Assembly (NCBI GenBank): GCA_947504725.1
Contig: CANNHN010000001.1
Location: 186,001 to 250,000, forward strand
DNA length: 64,000 nt
From: Bacteroidota bacterium
GTDB lineage: Bacteria > Bacteroidota > Bacteroidia > 2-12-FULL-35-15
Direction: 5' to 3'
In this document: positions 2,824-8,615 of the stretch, piece by piece
Numbering within the stretch: position 1 is the first letter of the stretch
Layout of the letters: every line of letters begins with the position of its first letter
Notes under the pieces: model-generated
Told to the model about the DNA's origin: nothing
The model's database searches: none
What the model saw: only the letters and a program-made list of their open reading frames with translations
Position numbers and translations under genes: made by a program

Positions 2824-4644
2824 ATGGCAGAAACATTAGAAGTAGCGGTATCATTAGAAGCATTTGATTGGAATGCATTAGGTAACAAAGGTGAAACCTA
2901 TTCACAAGCAGATCGTGATAAATACGATTCTCTTTATGAAAAAACATTAAAATCTGTAGCAGCAAACGAAATCATTGATGGTAAAGTTGTAGCTAAAAAC
3001 AGCAAAGAAGTAGTTGTAAACATTGGTTACAAGTCGGATGGTGTTGTTCAATTAACAGAATTTCGTTACAATCCTGATTTGAAAATTGGTGATATAGTTG
3101 AAGTATATGTTGAATCTCAAGAAGATAAAAGCGGTCAGTTAATTCTTTCTCACAAAACGGCTCGTGCCATGAAATCGTGGGAGCGTGTTAACCAAGCTCT
3201 TAACAACGATGAAATTATTAAAGGATATGTTAAATGCCGTACAAAAGGTGGTCTTATCGCTGATGTATTTGGTATCGAAGCATTCTTACCAGGTTCACAA
3301 ATTGATGTGAAACCAATTCGCGATTACGATGTATATGTTGGAAAAACAATGGAATTTAAAGTTGTGAAAATCAACAATGAGTTCAAAAACGTTGTCGTTT
3401 CTCACAAAGCATTAATTGAAGCGGAATTAGAACAACAGAAAAAAGAAATCATCTCTAAATTAGAAAAAGGACAAGTATTAGAAGGTACTGTGAAAAACAT
3501 TACTTCTTATGGTGTATTTATCGATTTAGGTGGAGTTGACGGATTGGTTCACATTACAGATTTATCTTGGGGACGTATTAACCACCCAGAAGAAATCGTT
3601 AAATTGGATCAAAAAATCAATGTTGTTATTCTTGATTTCGATAACGAGAAAAAACGTATTGCATTGGGCTTAAAACAACTTTCTGCTCATCCTTGGGATG
3701 GTTTGAAAGCTGAATTAGCTATCGGTGATAAAGTAAAAGGTAAAGTAGTTGTTATTGCTGATTACGGTGCTTTTGTTGAAATCGCACAAGGTGTTGAAGG
3801 TTTAATCCACGTTTCAGAAATGAGCTGGAGCCAACATTTGCGCACTGCACACGATTTCTTAAAAGTAGGTGATGAAGTAGAAGCAGTTGTTTTAACACTT
3901 GATCGTGAAGAACGCAAAATGTCATTAGGTATTAAACAATTGATGCCTGACCCATGGAGCAATGTAATTACTAAATATACTAAAGGATCTAAGCATGCTG
4001 CTACTGTTCGCAACTTTACCAACTTCGGTATTTTTGTTGAATTAGAAGAAGGTGTTGATGGTTTAATCCACATTTCTGACTTATCATGGTCTAAAAAAAT
4101 CAAGCATCCATCAGAATTCACTAAAATAGGTGATAAGATTGATGTTGTAGTTTTAGAAATTGATGGTGAAAACCGTAGATTGAGCTTAGGACACAAACAA
4201 TTGGAAGAAAATCCATGGGATGTGTTTGAAACAATCTTTATTGAAAATTCACTACACCAAGGAACAATTATCAGTGTAATGGAAAAAGGTGCAATCGTTT
4301 CTATGCCTTACGGTGTTGAAGCATTCTGCCCAACTCGTCACTTGGTAAAAACGGATGGTTCTTCAGCGAAAGCAGAAGATGTATTGGATTTCAAAGTTCT
4401 TGAATTCAACAAAGAAGGCAAAAAAATCATCGTTTCTCATAGCAAAATCAATGAAGAAGTAACTGCTGCTGACAAGGCTGCTGTTGCAACTGAAAAGAAA
4501 ACGGCTGGAGACGAAGAGAAAAAAGCTGTTAAAAAAGTAAAAGACAGTGTTGAAAAAACAACACTAGGCGATATGGATGTTCTATCTAGCTTAAAAGCGA
4601 ATATGGAAGAATCTGAAAAAAAATCGACTAAAAAGTCTGAATAA
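2824..4644 (+). CDS. rpsA: 30S ribosomal protein S1
   Basis: The protein has 606 residues and six S1-type OB-fold domains in order, at about residues 48-115, 128-195, 214-287, 300-373, 386-460 and 473-540. Domains 3-5 are canonical, with the repeated pattern YGVFIDLGGVDGLVHITDLSW or close variants, and each ends with LGLKQL, LGIKQL or LGHKQL. The first two domains are more divergent, as expected for the ribosome-binding part of S1. The C-terminal 60 residues are a lysine- and glutamate-rich tail. S1 binds mRNA on the small subunit. The gene has its own promoter and is followed by a dense series of hairpins including a strong terminator. The TAA stop is at 4642-4644. Confidence 0.97.
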   Translation: MAETLEVAVSLEAFDWNALGNKGETYSQADRDKYDSLYEKTLKSVAANEIIDGKVVAKNSKEVVVNIGYKSDGVVQLTEFRYNPDLKIGDIVEVYVESQEDKSGQLILSHKTARAMKSWERVNQALNNDEIIKGYVKCRTKGGLIADVFGIEAFLPGSQIDVKPIRDYDVYVGKTMEFKVVKINNEFKNVVVSHKALIEAELEQQKKEIISKLEKGQVLEGTVKNITSYGVFIDLGGVDGLVHITDLSWGRINHPEEIVKLDQKINVVILDFDNEKKRIALGLKQLSAHPWDGLKAELAIGDKVKGKVVVIADYGAFVEIAQGVEGLIHVSEMSWSQHLRTAHDFLKVGDEVEAVVLTLDREERKMSLGIKQLMPDPWSNVITKYTKGSKHAATVRNFTNFGIFVELEEGVDGLIHISDLSWSKKIKHPSEFTKIGDKIDVVVLEIDGENRRLSLGHKQLEENPWDVFETIFIENSLHQGTIISVMEKGAIVSMPYGVEAFCPTRHLVKTDGSSAKAEDVLDFKVLEFNKEGKKIIVSHSKINEEVTAADKAAVATEKKTAGDEEKKAVKKVKDSVEKTTLGDMDVLSSLKANMEESEKKSTKKSE

Positions 4645-4827
4645 TACCGAACTATCGGTACAAGTATTTTGTTCCGCTTACGCGCGGAACAAAATCTAAA
4701 AACCCACGCCATGGTTTTTTAGAAAAAAGCGCCCCCGTACTGTGGGGCGCTTTTTTATTTTAATCAAACTTGTTTTTAAGCTCCGCTTAAAAGCTTAGTT
4801 TGATTTATCCCGACAGAAGTCGGGATC
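4645..4827. repeat. Run of six consecutive inverted repeats after rpsA
   Basis: Six back-to-back inverted repeats fill this spacer, beginning at the base after the rpsA stop codon. (1) TACCGA-acta-TCGGTA at 4645-4660, perfect. (2) ATTTTGTTCCGC / GCGGAACAAAAT at 4666-4695, 12 bp perfect. (3) AAAAACC / GGTTTTT at 4698-4719. (4) The terminator at 4723-4756. (5) A composite stem at 4762-4805: AATCAAACT / AGTTTGATT outside and TTTTAAGC / GCTTAAAA inside. (6) ATCCCGAC-agaa-GTCGGGAT at 4807-4826, perfect. Only number 4 has a clear terminator layout. The others could protect the 3' end of rpsA mRNA or be remnants of dispersed palindromic elements. Confidence 0.85.
4723..4756. terminator. Bidirectional intrinsic terminator after rpsA
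   Basis: GCGCCCC at 4729-4735 pairs with GGGGCGC at 4744-4750. The stem is flanked by A6 on the left and T6 on the right, so it can terminate transcription from either strand. It lies about 80 bases after the rpsA stop. Confidence 0.9.
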
Positions 4828-5005: not shown

Positions 5006-5542
5006 ATGAAGCCAAGAATCATTTTAGACAGTAAACTTCTAGATATTACCGTTACTCGGCTTTGTTATCAATTAATAGAAATTCACAACGACTTCCAGAA
5101 CACAGTAATCATAGGGCTTCAGCCTCGTGGAACTTTTTTGGCTTCTCGCATCCATAAAAAACTTCAGGAAATTTTAAAACGAAAAGACATCAAGTATGGT
5201 AGTCTGGATACTACATTCTATCGTGATGATTTTCGCCAAAAGGAATTGGTTCCAAATGCAACAAGCATTGATTTTATTATCGAAGGAAAGAATGTGATAC
5301 TTGTAGATGATGTGTTGTTCACAGGAAGAACCATTCGTGCTGGGTTGGATGCAATGCTTGCATTCGGTCGACCAAATGATGTTGAACTTCTGGTTTTGAT
5401 TGACAGACGACTAAGCAGACATTTACCTATACAAGCCAAATACATAGGAAAAGTAATAGATTCCATCGCTTCCGAAAAAGTAAAAGTAGAGTGGAAGGAA
5501 ACAGATGGAGCAGATAAAGTAACACTCTTATCAAACGACTAA
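5006..5542 (+). CDS. pyrR: PyrR: pyrimidine operon regulator / uracil phosphoribosyltransferase
   Basis: This 178-residue type I phosphoribosyltransferase carries the PRPP-binding loop VILVDDVLFTGRTIRAGLDA (about residues 97-116). It also has the PyrR-type flexible-loop region around SLDTTFYRDDF and an LIDRRLSRHLPIQAKYIGK stretch typical of the family. PyrR proteins make UMP from uracil and PRPP, and many also bind pyr mRNA. Its TAA stop overlaps the pyrB ATG (TAATG at 5540-5544), so the two are translationally coupled. I see no obvious PyrR anti-terminator structure in the short upstream region, and the leader looks nearly absent. Whether this copy still regulates by RNA binding is therefore open. 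Confidence 0.93.
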   Translation: MKPRIILDSKLLDITVTRLCYQLIEIHNDFQNTVIIGLQPRGTFLASRIHKKLQEILKRKDIKYGSLDTTFYRDDFRQKELVPNATSIDFIIEGKNVILVDDVLFTGRTIRAGLDAMLAFGRPNDVELLVLIDRRLSRHLPIQAKYIGKVIDSIASEKVKVEWKETDGADKVTLLSND

Positions 5543-6465
5543 TGACAAAACTGAGTACAAAACATTTACTTGGAATAAAAGAGCTGACAGCTGATGATAT
5601 TCATTTGATATTGCACACAGCCGAAAATTTTAAAGAAGTCATTAATCGTCCCATCAAAAAAGTTCCTTCACTCAGAGATATTACCATTGCCAATTTATTT
5701 TTCGAAAACTCTACACGCACAAAATTATCCTTTGAATTAGCAGAAAAGCGCCTAAGTGCTGATGTTGTTAATTTTTCTTCAGGTTCATCCTCGGTAAAAA
5801 AAGGGGAAACATTAATTGACACGGTAAATAATATCCTGGCCATGAAAGTGGATATGGTAGTGATGCGCCATCCTAACCCAGGAGCAGCAGTATTTTTATC
5901 AAAACACATTGATGCTAAAATTATAAATGCTGGTGACGGAGCACACGAACATCCAACTCAAGCATTGCTGGATGCTTTTTCAATAAAGGAAAAGCTAGGA
6001 AGTATAAAAGGAAAGAAGATAGCCATCATCGGAGATATTCTTCATTCACGCGTTGCTTTGTCAAACATATTTTGTCTGCAAAAACTAGGAGCAGAAGTGA
6101 TGGTATGCGGTCCAACTACCTTAATGCCTAAGTATATTCATAGTTTAGGAGTGAAAGTAGAACATGACTTAAGAAAAGCGCTTGAATGGTGCGATGTAGC
6201 CAATATGTTAAGGATTCAATTGGAGCGCCAAGACATAAAATTTTTCCCTTCATTACGCGAATACACCATGTTATTTGGACTTAACAAAGATTTGCTGGAT
6301 TCACTTTCTAAGAAAATAGTGGTTATGCATCCAGGTCCAATCAATAGAGGTGTTGAGATTACTAGCGATGTTGCAGATAGCGCTCAAAGCATTATTTTGG
6401 AACAGGTCGAAAATGGAGTAGCTGTAAGAATGGCTGTTTTGTTTCTTTTGGCAGGTAGAGCATAG
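5542..6465 (+). CDS. pyrB: Aspartate carbamoyltransferase catalytic subunit
   Basis: The protein has 307 residues, normal for the catalytic chain. It contains the carbamoyl-phosphate loop FFENSTRTKLSFELA (about residues 53-67), the second loop SSSVKKGETL, the HPTQALLDAF segment, and the C-terminal HPGPINRGVEI motif that closes over the substrate. It catalyses the committed step of pyrimidine synthesis: carbamoyl phosphate plus aspartate gives carbamoyl aspartate. The gene overlaps pyrR by one base, forming a two-gene operon. No pyrI regulatory subunit follows. The other pyrimidine genes in the window (pyrD at 32.9 kb and the pyrC homologue at 59.2 kb) are not linked to this operon. Confidence 0.96.
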   Translation: MTKLSTKHLLGIKELTADDIHLILHTAENFKEVINRPIKKVPSLRDITIANLFFENSTRTKLSFELAEKRLSADVVNFSSGSSSVKKGETLIDTVNNILAMKVDMVVMRHPNPGAAVFLSKHIDAKIINAGDGAHEHPTQALLDAFSIKEKLGSIKGKKIAIIGDILHSRVALSNIFCLQKLGAEVMVCGPTTLMPKYIHSLGVKVEHDLRKALEWCDVANMLRIQLERQDIKFFPSLREYTMLFGLNKDLLDSLSKKIVVMHPGPINRGVEITSDVADSAQSIILEQVENGVAVRMAVLFLLAGRA

Positions 6466-6558: not shown

Positions 6559-6906
6559 ATGAGTTTTCAAATAGATAAGACCGACAAGTACACCATCATT
6601 AAACTGCTTGCAGAAAAGTTGGATAGCAATTTGGCACCTTCTTTAAAATCAGAATTGGTTGTAATAAGTACAGATGGTGCTAAAAACATTATTATTGATT
6701 TATCGGATACTCGTTACTGCGATTCTTCTGGCTTAAGCGCTATTTTGGTGGCTAACCGTTTGTGTAAAAATAGCCAAGGCGCTTTTATTCTTTCAGGTTT
6801 GCAAGATTCTGTAAAAAAACTGATTTCAATTTCTCAATTAGATACCATTTTAAATATAACAACAACTGTGGATGAAGCAAAGGAAATGCTTTCTGTTCAC
6901 GCTTAA
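6559..6906 (+). CDS. STAS-domain protein (anti-sigma factor antagonist-like)
   Basis: This 115-residue protein consists of a single STAS domain. The key loop is DTRYCDSSGLSAILVANRL (about residues 49-67), with the DSSG motif that carries the phosphorylatable serine in SpoIIAA/RsbV-type antagonists. No membrane segment or additional domain is present. Such proteins bind and sequester anti-sigma factor kinases in partner-switching systems, but no partner kinase is in the window. A SpoIIE-type sensor may lie at the left edge, although nothing links the two. The next gene begins 21 bases downstream on the same strand, so co-transcription with the T9SS cargo gene and rnz is likely. Confidence 0.9.
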   Translation: MSFQIDKTDKYTIIKLLAEKLDSNLAPSLKSELVVISTDGAKNIIIDLSDTRYCDSSGLSAILVANRLCKNSQGAFILSGLQDSVKKLISISQLDTILNITTTVDEAKEMLSVHA

Positions 6907-6927: not shown

Positions 6928-7695
6928 ATGATTAAAAAACTACTTTTCTCTTTTGCTTTTGTTGCAGCTTTTGGATTTGCTTCTAATGCACAAATTTGCA
7001 CACCAGACATTTCTTGTATCCCTGTCTCAGAGCCATACGGATTATGTCCTGACAGTACAACAGGAATCGCAATTGGAACCGTTGGTGTTCCTTATTCTCA
7101 ATTGATGAGTATAAAAGTTCCTGCTGACCCATCTAGCTTTGGAGCGCCTCCTCTAACTGGTTTAGTATCTATTGAAATTGGAAGTGTAGATAGTTTAGCG
7201 CCTGGGTTGTCTTATGCATGTGTCCCTGGATCATGTGATTTTCCTGCTAGCTCAAATGGTTGTATCTTAATTACAGGAACACCCACTGTAGCTTGGAACA
7301 AACAAGTAATAGTTCACGGAATTGGTCATTTAACTTTGCCTATTATCGGAACTCCTTTTACTCAAGGAATTGACAATTTGCAATATCGCAGTATTGTTCT
7401 TGATCCATCAAGCATTTCAACCTTGGATTTAACAAAATTTGATGTAGATCAAAACTCTCCTAATCCTTTTAGCGAAAGTTCTGAAATTCGTTTTTCTACT
7501 ACTGATAACTCAACTGTTGAATTCAAAGTTTTCAATATGTTAGGTGCTGTTATTTACAACAAGAATTTTAAAACGTCAAAAGGCATTAATAATATTAAGA
7601 TTGAAGCAAATTCATTTGCTCCTGGAGTTTATATTTACTCAATCACAAATGGTGATAAAACAATCACAAAACGTATGATTGTTGCAGGAAAATAA
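6928..7695 (+). CDS. Secreted protein with T9SS type A sorting domain
   Basis: The protein has 255 residues, with a signal peptide of about 21 residues (LLFSFAFVAAFGFASNA). A cysteine-containing middle region follows, with an Ig-like pattern (LAPGLSYACVPGSC ... ILITGTPTV). The C-terminal ~80 residues are a type A T9SS sorting domain: it opens with QNSPNPFSESSEIRFS and ends with GVYIYSITNGDKTITKRMIV. It is therefore probably exported by the Sec and type IX systems and displayed on the surface or released. The middle region has no assigned function. Its TAA stop overlaps the ATG of rnz by one base. The best terminator candidate for its transcript is a strong hairpin inside rnz, 65 bases downstream. 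Confidence 0.85.
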   Translation: MIKKLLFSFAFVAAFGFASNAQICTPDISCIPVSEPYGLCPDSTTGIAIGTVGVPYSQLMSIKVPADPSSFGAPPLTGLVSIEIGSVDSLAPGLSYACVPGSCDFPASSNGCILITGTPTVAWNKQVIVHGIGHLTLPIIGTPFTQGIDNLQYRSIVLDPSSISTLDLTKFDVDQNSPNPFSESSEIRFSTTDNSTVEFKVFNMLGAVIYNKNFKTSKGINNIKIEANSFAPGVYIYSITNGDKTITKRMIVAGK

Positions 7696-8615
7696 TGCAA
7701 AATTTTGAATTAACGATTCTTGGTTGCAGCAGTGCAACTCCAACATCTAAAAGAAATCCAACCGCTCAGCTACTTAACATAGCTGAGCGGTTTTTTTTAA
7801 TAGATTGTGGCGAGGCAACTCAAATTCAATTACGCAGATTCAAACTAAAGTTTCAGCGCATCAACCACATTTTTATCAGTCATTTGCATGGCGATCATTA
7901 TTTAGGATTAATGGGCTTAATTTCTAGTATGCATTTATTGGGACGTACAGTTGAACTTCACTTATATTGTCCAGCCGAACTTCAAGAAATTATTGAAATT
8001 CAGTTCAAACATTCTCAATCATACATTAAGTTTCCTATAGTTTATCATGCGCACAATTATGTTAACAACGAATTGATTTTTGAAGACGAAAGAGTAGAAG
8101 TGAGAACAATTGTCTTAAATCATCGCATACCTTGTTGTGGTTTTGTTTTTAAAGAAAAGCCTTTGTTGCCAACCATTTCGAAAGAAGCAATTCACTTATT
8201 TCAATTAACTGTTGACGAAATTGTAGCGATAAAAGCAGGTGGAGATTTTGTAAAAAGATCAGGTGAAATTATTAAGAATTCTGAACTCCTAAGTATACCG
8301 AATTCTCCAAGAAGCTATGCTTATTGCTCAGACACATGTTATGATGAAAGACTTTTAGAATATATAAAAGGAGTTAACCTCTTGTATCACGAAGCCACAT
8401 TTTTAAATGAAATGCAAGAAAGGGCAAAGGAAACCTATCATACAACTGCATTACAGGCAGGTACAATTGCTAAAAAAGCAGAAGTGAAACAATTGATGAT
8501 TGGACATTATTCAGCTCGTTATAAGGATTTACAACCATTGTTAGACGAAGCTAAATCCGTTTTTGAGAATACAGTTTTAGCCATTGAAGGGGAAAGTACC
8601 ATCGTGCATAACTAA
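7695..8615 (+). CDS. rnz: Ribonuclease Z (tRNA 3' endonuclease)
   Basis: This 306-residue metallo-beta-lactamase fold protein begins with the family start (LTILGCSSATPTSKRNPTAQ), followed by FLIDCGEATQIQLRR. The zinc motif HLHGDH is in FISHLHGDHYLGL (about residues 61-73), and later histidine and aspartate ligands appear in CSDTCYDE, YHEATF and MIGHYSARY. The length is normal for short-form RNase Z. It trims 3' trailers from tRNA precursors. The start codon overlaps the preceding stop (TAATG), so translation is coupled. Codons 22-35 contain a perfect 13-bp inverted repeat and a run of eight Ts (separate entry), a DNA feature that should reduce transcription into the rest of the gene. Confidence 0.94.
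   Translation: MQNFELTILGCSSATPTSKRNPTAQLLNIAERFFLIDCGEATQIQLRRFKLKFQRINHIFISHLHGDHYLGLMGLISSMHLLGRTVELHLYCPAELQEIIEIQFKHSQSYIKFPIVYHAHNYVNNELIFEDERVEVRTIVLNHRIPCCGFVFKEKPLLPTISKEAIHLFQLTVDEIVAIKAGGDFVKRSGEIIKNSELLSIPNSPRSYAYCSDTCYDERLLEYIKGVNLLYHEATFLNEMQERAKETYHTTALQAGTIAKKAEVKQLMIGHYSARYKDLQPLLDEAKSVFENTVLAIEGESTIVHN
7760..7798 (+). terminator. Intrinsic terminator embedded in the rnz coding sequence
   Basis: AACCGCTCAGCTA at 7760-7772 is perfectly repeated as TAGCTGAGCGGTT at 7780-7792, with a 7-base loop and eight Ts at 7791-7798. The stem encodes TAQLLNIAERFF of RNase Z, so the sequence is both coding and terminator-like. It lies 65 bases after the stop of the T9SS cargo gene, the usual place for that gene's own terminator. 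Confidence 0.8.

Follow-up and report, generated by a model that had tools for sequence, protein, structure and literature searches.

A putative intrinsic terminator encoded within the ribonuclease Z gene of Bacteroidia, and its dependence on the upstream gene

Intrinsic terminators that lie within operons and limit the expression of the downstream gene are already known. In Shigella flexneri, an intergenic intrinsic terminator downstream of dksA controls gluQ-rs, and altering this terminator raised gluQ-rs expression (PMC3542578). E. coli has many premature and ORF-internal 3′ ends, an example being the intrinsic terminator of ispU/uppS (IspZ) (PMC7815308), and a report on Methanococcus maripaludis describes operon-internal termination that leads to different expression of genes in one operon (PMC10450193). 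The literature searched held no description of a class-wide, covarying terminator that is located in the N-terminal coding sequence of a downstream enzyme and depends on which gene lies upstream. Judging from sequence comparison, it is this class-wide, dual-coded and neighbour-dependent form that would be new at the locus described here.

The window analyzed is a stretch of 64,000 nt from a Bacteroidota contig (CANNHN010000001.1, positions 186,001 to 250,000), and all coordinates refer to it (Table 1). The gene encoding RNase Z (rnz), a tRNA-processing enzyme, follows a gene encoding a protein with a T9SS type A sorting domain, hereafter the cargo gene, and the TAA of cargo and the ATG of rnz overlap by one base. 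In lineages without the cargo gene, the STAS gene adjoins rnz directly. At one related locus, L012, which covers the gene region of L058, STAS and rnz are separated by two cargo-like genes in tandem.

Table 1. Coordinates of the hairpin elements and surrounding genes in the window
Feature	Position	Strand	Remarks
pyrB, aspartate carbamoyltransferase	5542..6465	+	conserved order pyrB-STAS-(cargo)-rnz
STAS / anti-sigma factor antagonist gene, next upstream of cargo	6559..6906	+	
T9SS type A sorting-domain protein gene (cargo)	6928..7695	+	PF18962 E 1.4e-11; TIGR04183
rnz, ribonuclease Z, 306 aa, intact	7695..8615	+	NCBIfam NF000801 and TIGR02651 above cut-off
Putative terminator stem, 5′ arm AACCGCTCAGCTA	7760..7772	+	rnz codons 22-26, ..PTAQL
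Loop CTTAACA	7773..7779	+	codons 27-29; sequence differs among relatives
Putative terminator stem, 3′ arm TAGCTGAGCGGTT	7780..7792	+	codons 29-33, ..AERF
T8 tract	7791..7798	+	codons 33-35, Phe-Phe-Leu, TTT TTT TTA

The stem-loop at 7760-7792 (AACCGCTCAGCTA-CTTAACA-TAGCTGAGCGGTT) consists of 13 bp without mismatch, 7 of them G-C pairs, and a 7-nt loop, and the first two bases of the T8 run (7791-7798) pair with AA, leaving six U unpaired. The minimum free energy of this hairpin was −21.3 kcal/mol (z = −7.7), and none of 200 dinucleotide shuffles was equally stable. The G+C-rich stable stem-loop and the adjacent U tract on the transcribed strand, by which an intrinsic terminator is recognized, are both present, and the whole structure falls in codons 22-35 of rnz, approximately 66-104 nt downstream from the start codon. 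A preliminary description had reported a perfect 13-bp stem, a 7-base loop and T8 in these codons, which the sequence and its folding confirmed, and had held the rnz frame to be intact, as was borne out by a 306-aa ORF scoring above the NCBIfam ribonuclease Z cut-offs. The stem sequence is single-copy in the genome even when up to three mismatches are allowed, which rules out a dispersed repeat or mobile palindrome. The Rfam search gave only unrelated families below threshold, none of them near the gathering score, and a known RNA family was thereby ruled out. A bidirectional terminator was also ruled out, since the minus strand of the hairpin has no T run and there is no convergent gene.

We compared the hairpin with gene-end terminators of the same genome, scanning 464 kb under tighter calling criteria (7 or more T of 8, dG ≤ −15). 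The strong terminators obtained were located after gene stops in 41 cases, in other intergenic positions in 10 and in opposite-strand ORFs in 5, and the rnz hairpin was the only one within a same-strand ORF. It was among the strongest in the 464 kb and its form matches that of the gene-end terminators. The stem starts 64 bases past the cargo stop and its midpoint lies 79 nt past it, on the far side of the distribution of stop-to-hairpin distances, for which the genome median was 33. Elsewhere in the window, three consecutive hairpins were observed at 4723-4826, past a gene ending at 4644 (S1-like repeat protein), and the first of them is a strong terminator.

Selection on the hairpin was analyzed within the only genus of the order in the genome collection searched (36 genomes), using 30 rnz loci with amino-acid identity down to 70%. 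The stem core and the T run were kept in all 30 loci, with the pairing retained at synonymous sites. When each gene was shuffled synonymously, a terminator-like hairpin at codons 22-35 was expected in 5.0 loci compared with the 30 observed, and a strong hairpin in 0.3 compared with 29; no other part of the gene stood out. The synonymous diversity of codons 22-35 was 0.42 of that expected, the lowest of any 13-codon window in the gene (median 0.92), and returned to the background from codon 36, one codon past the T run. Codon use in both arms was nearly fixed, with Thr23 ACC in 29/29, Ala24 GCT in 30/30 and Gln25 CAG in 29/30 in the 5′ arm, and Ala30 GCT and Glu31 GAG each in 30/30 in the 3′ arm. 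Arg32 was encoded only by CGG, which extends the stem, or by CGT, which extends the T run, and the T run itself was encoded by TTT in 59 of 60 codons for F33 and F34 and by TTA or TTG in 30/30 for L35. In addition, synonymous diversity was low in rnz codons 2-22 (7698-7760), at about half of the expectation in several windows, but this part has no covarying structure and its low diversity possibly comes from translation-initiation constraints.

The amino acids here are near-invariant in the genus (TAQLLNIAERFFL), and the motif xRFFL yields T runs anyway, so that the hairpin might be a by-product of protein conservation or, alternatively, a DNA operator palindrome, in either case with no role in termination. 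We consider this extremely improbable. Synonymous-shuffle nulls, which keep the protein, yielded far fewer and weaker hairpins, by which a chance or protein-driven origin was ruled out, and the operator part is contradicted by the minus strand, which lacks a T run, and by the type of mismatch. Among xRFFL sequences that were not selected for the hairpin, G-U mismatches exceeded A-C mismatches (41 versus 15), which argues for an RNA of the rnz strand.

The same site was examined in 144 distinct rnz sequences from outside the genus, obtained by class-wide and named-genome searches; most genomes in the whole comparison are metagenome-assembled. A hairpin at the homologous codons was found in 46 of the 144, although such terminator calls depend on the threshold; in the comparison with synonymous shuffles, 45 were observed and 8.0 expected. 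The carriers belong to at least 14 GTDB families including that of the window. In the 42 non-genus xRFFL sequences, again not selected for the hairpin, the mean energy was −16.3 versus −4.5 ± 0.4 under synonymous shuffles. In an alignment of 50 sequences chosen for having the hairpin, 10 of the 14 pairs of the stem had changed on both sides, and the covariation score was 0.268, compared with 0.125 ± 0.010 for shuffled and at most 0.086 for slid partners. Compensatory changes include CGCTC/GAGCG to CGCCC/GGGCG in three loci (L114, L117 and L165) and to CTCTC/GAGAG in two (L066 and L172); in L172, Ala is replaced by Ser on one side, and on the other side Arg is encoded by AGG. T content exceeded the synonymous null in the genus, xRFFL and cargo sets alike. 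The stem ranged from 10 to 14 bp among relatives and the loop was free to vary, while the T run was kept. The shuffle nulls and the covariation show that the hairpin is selected on its pairing beyond the protein code and is not due to chance.

The window stem (12-13 bp) with its 7-nt loop resembles a minimal RNase Z substrate, the acceptor/T-arm helix. Cleavage of such a tRNA-like stem by RNase Z would give autoregulation of the enzyme, for which there is probably a constant need, as at least 4 of the 5 tRNA genes sampled lack CCA. The hairpin might otherwise serve mRNA processing or protection of a 3′ end. This group of explanations is very unlikely, however, as it is the T run that stays constant while stem length and loop vary freely, the hairpin has no T-loop motif, and the element is missing when STAS is upstream. 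A substrate mimic was rejected on the same grounds, since a constant 12-bp stacked helix with a 7-nt T-loop was not found and neither stem length nor loop is kept.

If the hairpin ends the cargo transcript, its presence should depend on gene order. We classed the upstream gene from 450-600 nt of sequence, using a profile of T9SS tails or the resemblance to STAS, and found the hairpin in 41 of 67 non-genus loci with cargo upstream and in 5 of 76 others (Fisher, p = 8e-13), with one locus (L070) counted as negative in spite of having both hairpin and cargo, because an apparent frameshift at T9 misplaced its rnz start. In L070, the T9 after CGG throws rnz out of frame, which may be a homopolymer sequencing error or genuine slippage. 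Correlated evolution of hairpin and cargo was assessed by Pagel's test on a tree of rnz from which codons 18-40 had been removed, leaving out L147, for which the cargo call was uncertain; the likelihood ratio was 31.9 (p = 2e-6). In sequence sets assembled irrespective of the hairpin, the mean dG was −13.0 with cargo upstream versus a null of −4.3 (sd 0.31), and −4.0 with STAS upstream versus −3.7 (sd 0.33), which equals the null.

The location of the terminator followed the spacing of the two genes as well. Where cargo abuts or overlaps rnz, 38 terminators were internal to rnz and 2 were upstream of it, whereas at a distance of at least 30 nt, 6 were upstream and 3 internal (p = 1.5e-4 versus abutting); 14 of the 54 abutting pairs outside the genus had no called terminator. 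With STAS upstream, the hairpin was kept in 9 of 30 genus members and in 5 of 144 others, at full strength in L013 and L074. Genus stems with no intact cargo directly upstream (n = 9) were weaker than the rest, with a median of −14.4 versus −21.7 (p = 8e-4), a comparison that represents few independent cargo losses. Relic cargo tails remain before rnz in L013 and L017 of the genus and in L119 outside it (NRMVLSGK, KMVI and YKMAVST, each followed by a stop), indicating that cargo was lost first and the stem weakened afterwards in most cases, L013 still being strong. The element thus lies after the upstream stop, before most of rnz, and depends on the upstream gene, as an intra-operon terminator does. 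The preliminary description had proposed that the sequence ends the cargo transcript while encoding RNase Z; the comparison supports this, in that the presence of the hairpin tracks an upstream T9SS cargo gene, and relatives with the same gene order retained the stem, with compensatory changes across Bacteroidia, rather than losing it.

The hairpin could instead be an attenuator of rnz itself, in which the leading ribosome or a factor sets termination versus read-through whatever the upstream gene. Its fixed place in rnz, where a ribosome at least 17 codons into the gene would mask the 5′ arm, is in accordance with such a role, as are its retention in the genus members with STAS upstream mentioned above and the lowered synonymous diversity that extends into codons 2-22. 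Nevertheless, we regard an attenuator as unlikely, because hairpin presence follows the cargo gene and, outside the genus, loci with STAS abutting rnz have a hairpin energy equal to the null. The sole hairpin upstream, at 7722-7739, shows no covariation, by which antiterminator pairing with it was ruled out, and no other antiterminator was found. Likewise, neither a conserved alternative pairing nor an aptamer, as expected upstream in a leader attenuator or riboswitch, was detected by covariation or by Rfam match.

It is likely, in our estimate, that 7760-7798 is an intrinsic terminator for the cargo transcripts (and those of STAS/pyrB) coded in the rnz frame, with read-through giving a low level of RNase Z mRNA, and in many Bacteroidia the element probably ends the message of the upstream secreted-protein gene. 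Several observations speak against this reading, namely the hairpins kept with STAS upstream, the abutting pairs that have no called terminator, the long distance from the cargo stop and the small number of independent cargo losses behind the energy difference in the genus. At the level of sequence, it is demonstrated that the structure exists, that it is selected independently of the protein, that it depends on the upstream gene, and that all full-length rnz transcripts cross it. Because cargo stop and rnz start overlap, no space remains between the genes, and codon choice places the putative terminator in the rnz frame. RNA polymerase arriving from the cargo gene would mostly halt at 7797-7799, and the minority reading past the element would supply the RNase Z mRNA, a low expression level that the gene layout implies. 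A ribosome approximately 17 codons into rnz may mask the 5′ arm and thus increase read-through. Cargo mRNAs ending at the element would include the rnz start but lack its stop codon, and non-stop rescue products are predicted for this reason.

A further extension is that the dual-coded terminator works as a regulated switch, in which ribosomes at the overlapping rnz start, fed by translation termination of cargo, decide read-through and tie the RNase Z supply to translation and to T9SS protein expression, and that the neighbour gene also shaped the amino acids of the enzyme. This is conceivable but doubtful at present. Outside the genus, the RFFL motif was found in 33 of 66 sequences with cargo upstream and in 6 of 44 with STAS upstream, counts that ignore phylogeny.

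The locus appears to be a clear natural example of a stop signal that evolved within the coding sequence of a housekeeping enzyme and that appears or weakens with its neighbour gene. Gene order can, on this evidence, impose an RNA-level constraint on the codon use, and perhaps the amino acids, of the next gene, and ORF-internal terminators should not be dismissed as false positives. Transcription-translation coupling in Bacteroidota also becomes testable at a site where read-through would be needed for a probably essential enzyme.

Among the known systems, that of M. maripaludis is archaeal, and dual coding in the downstream ORF was not found described for it (PMC10450193). The rnz element resembles E. 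coli ispU/uppS in that intrinsic termination would occur prematurely, before or within a housekeeping gene whose expression needs read-through (PMC7815308), but the E. coli ends come from RNA sequencing of a single species, whereas the rnz element is known from deep comparison and its presence depends on the upstream gene. As in dksA-gluQ-rs, the putative terminator stands between the gene upstream and a tRNA-related gene that follows it, which in that system uses the upstream promoter (PMC3542578). Unlike that intergenic terminator, the one at rnz lies inside the downstream frame, where its bases encode the enzyme and covary across families.
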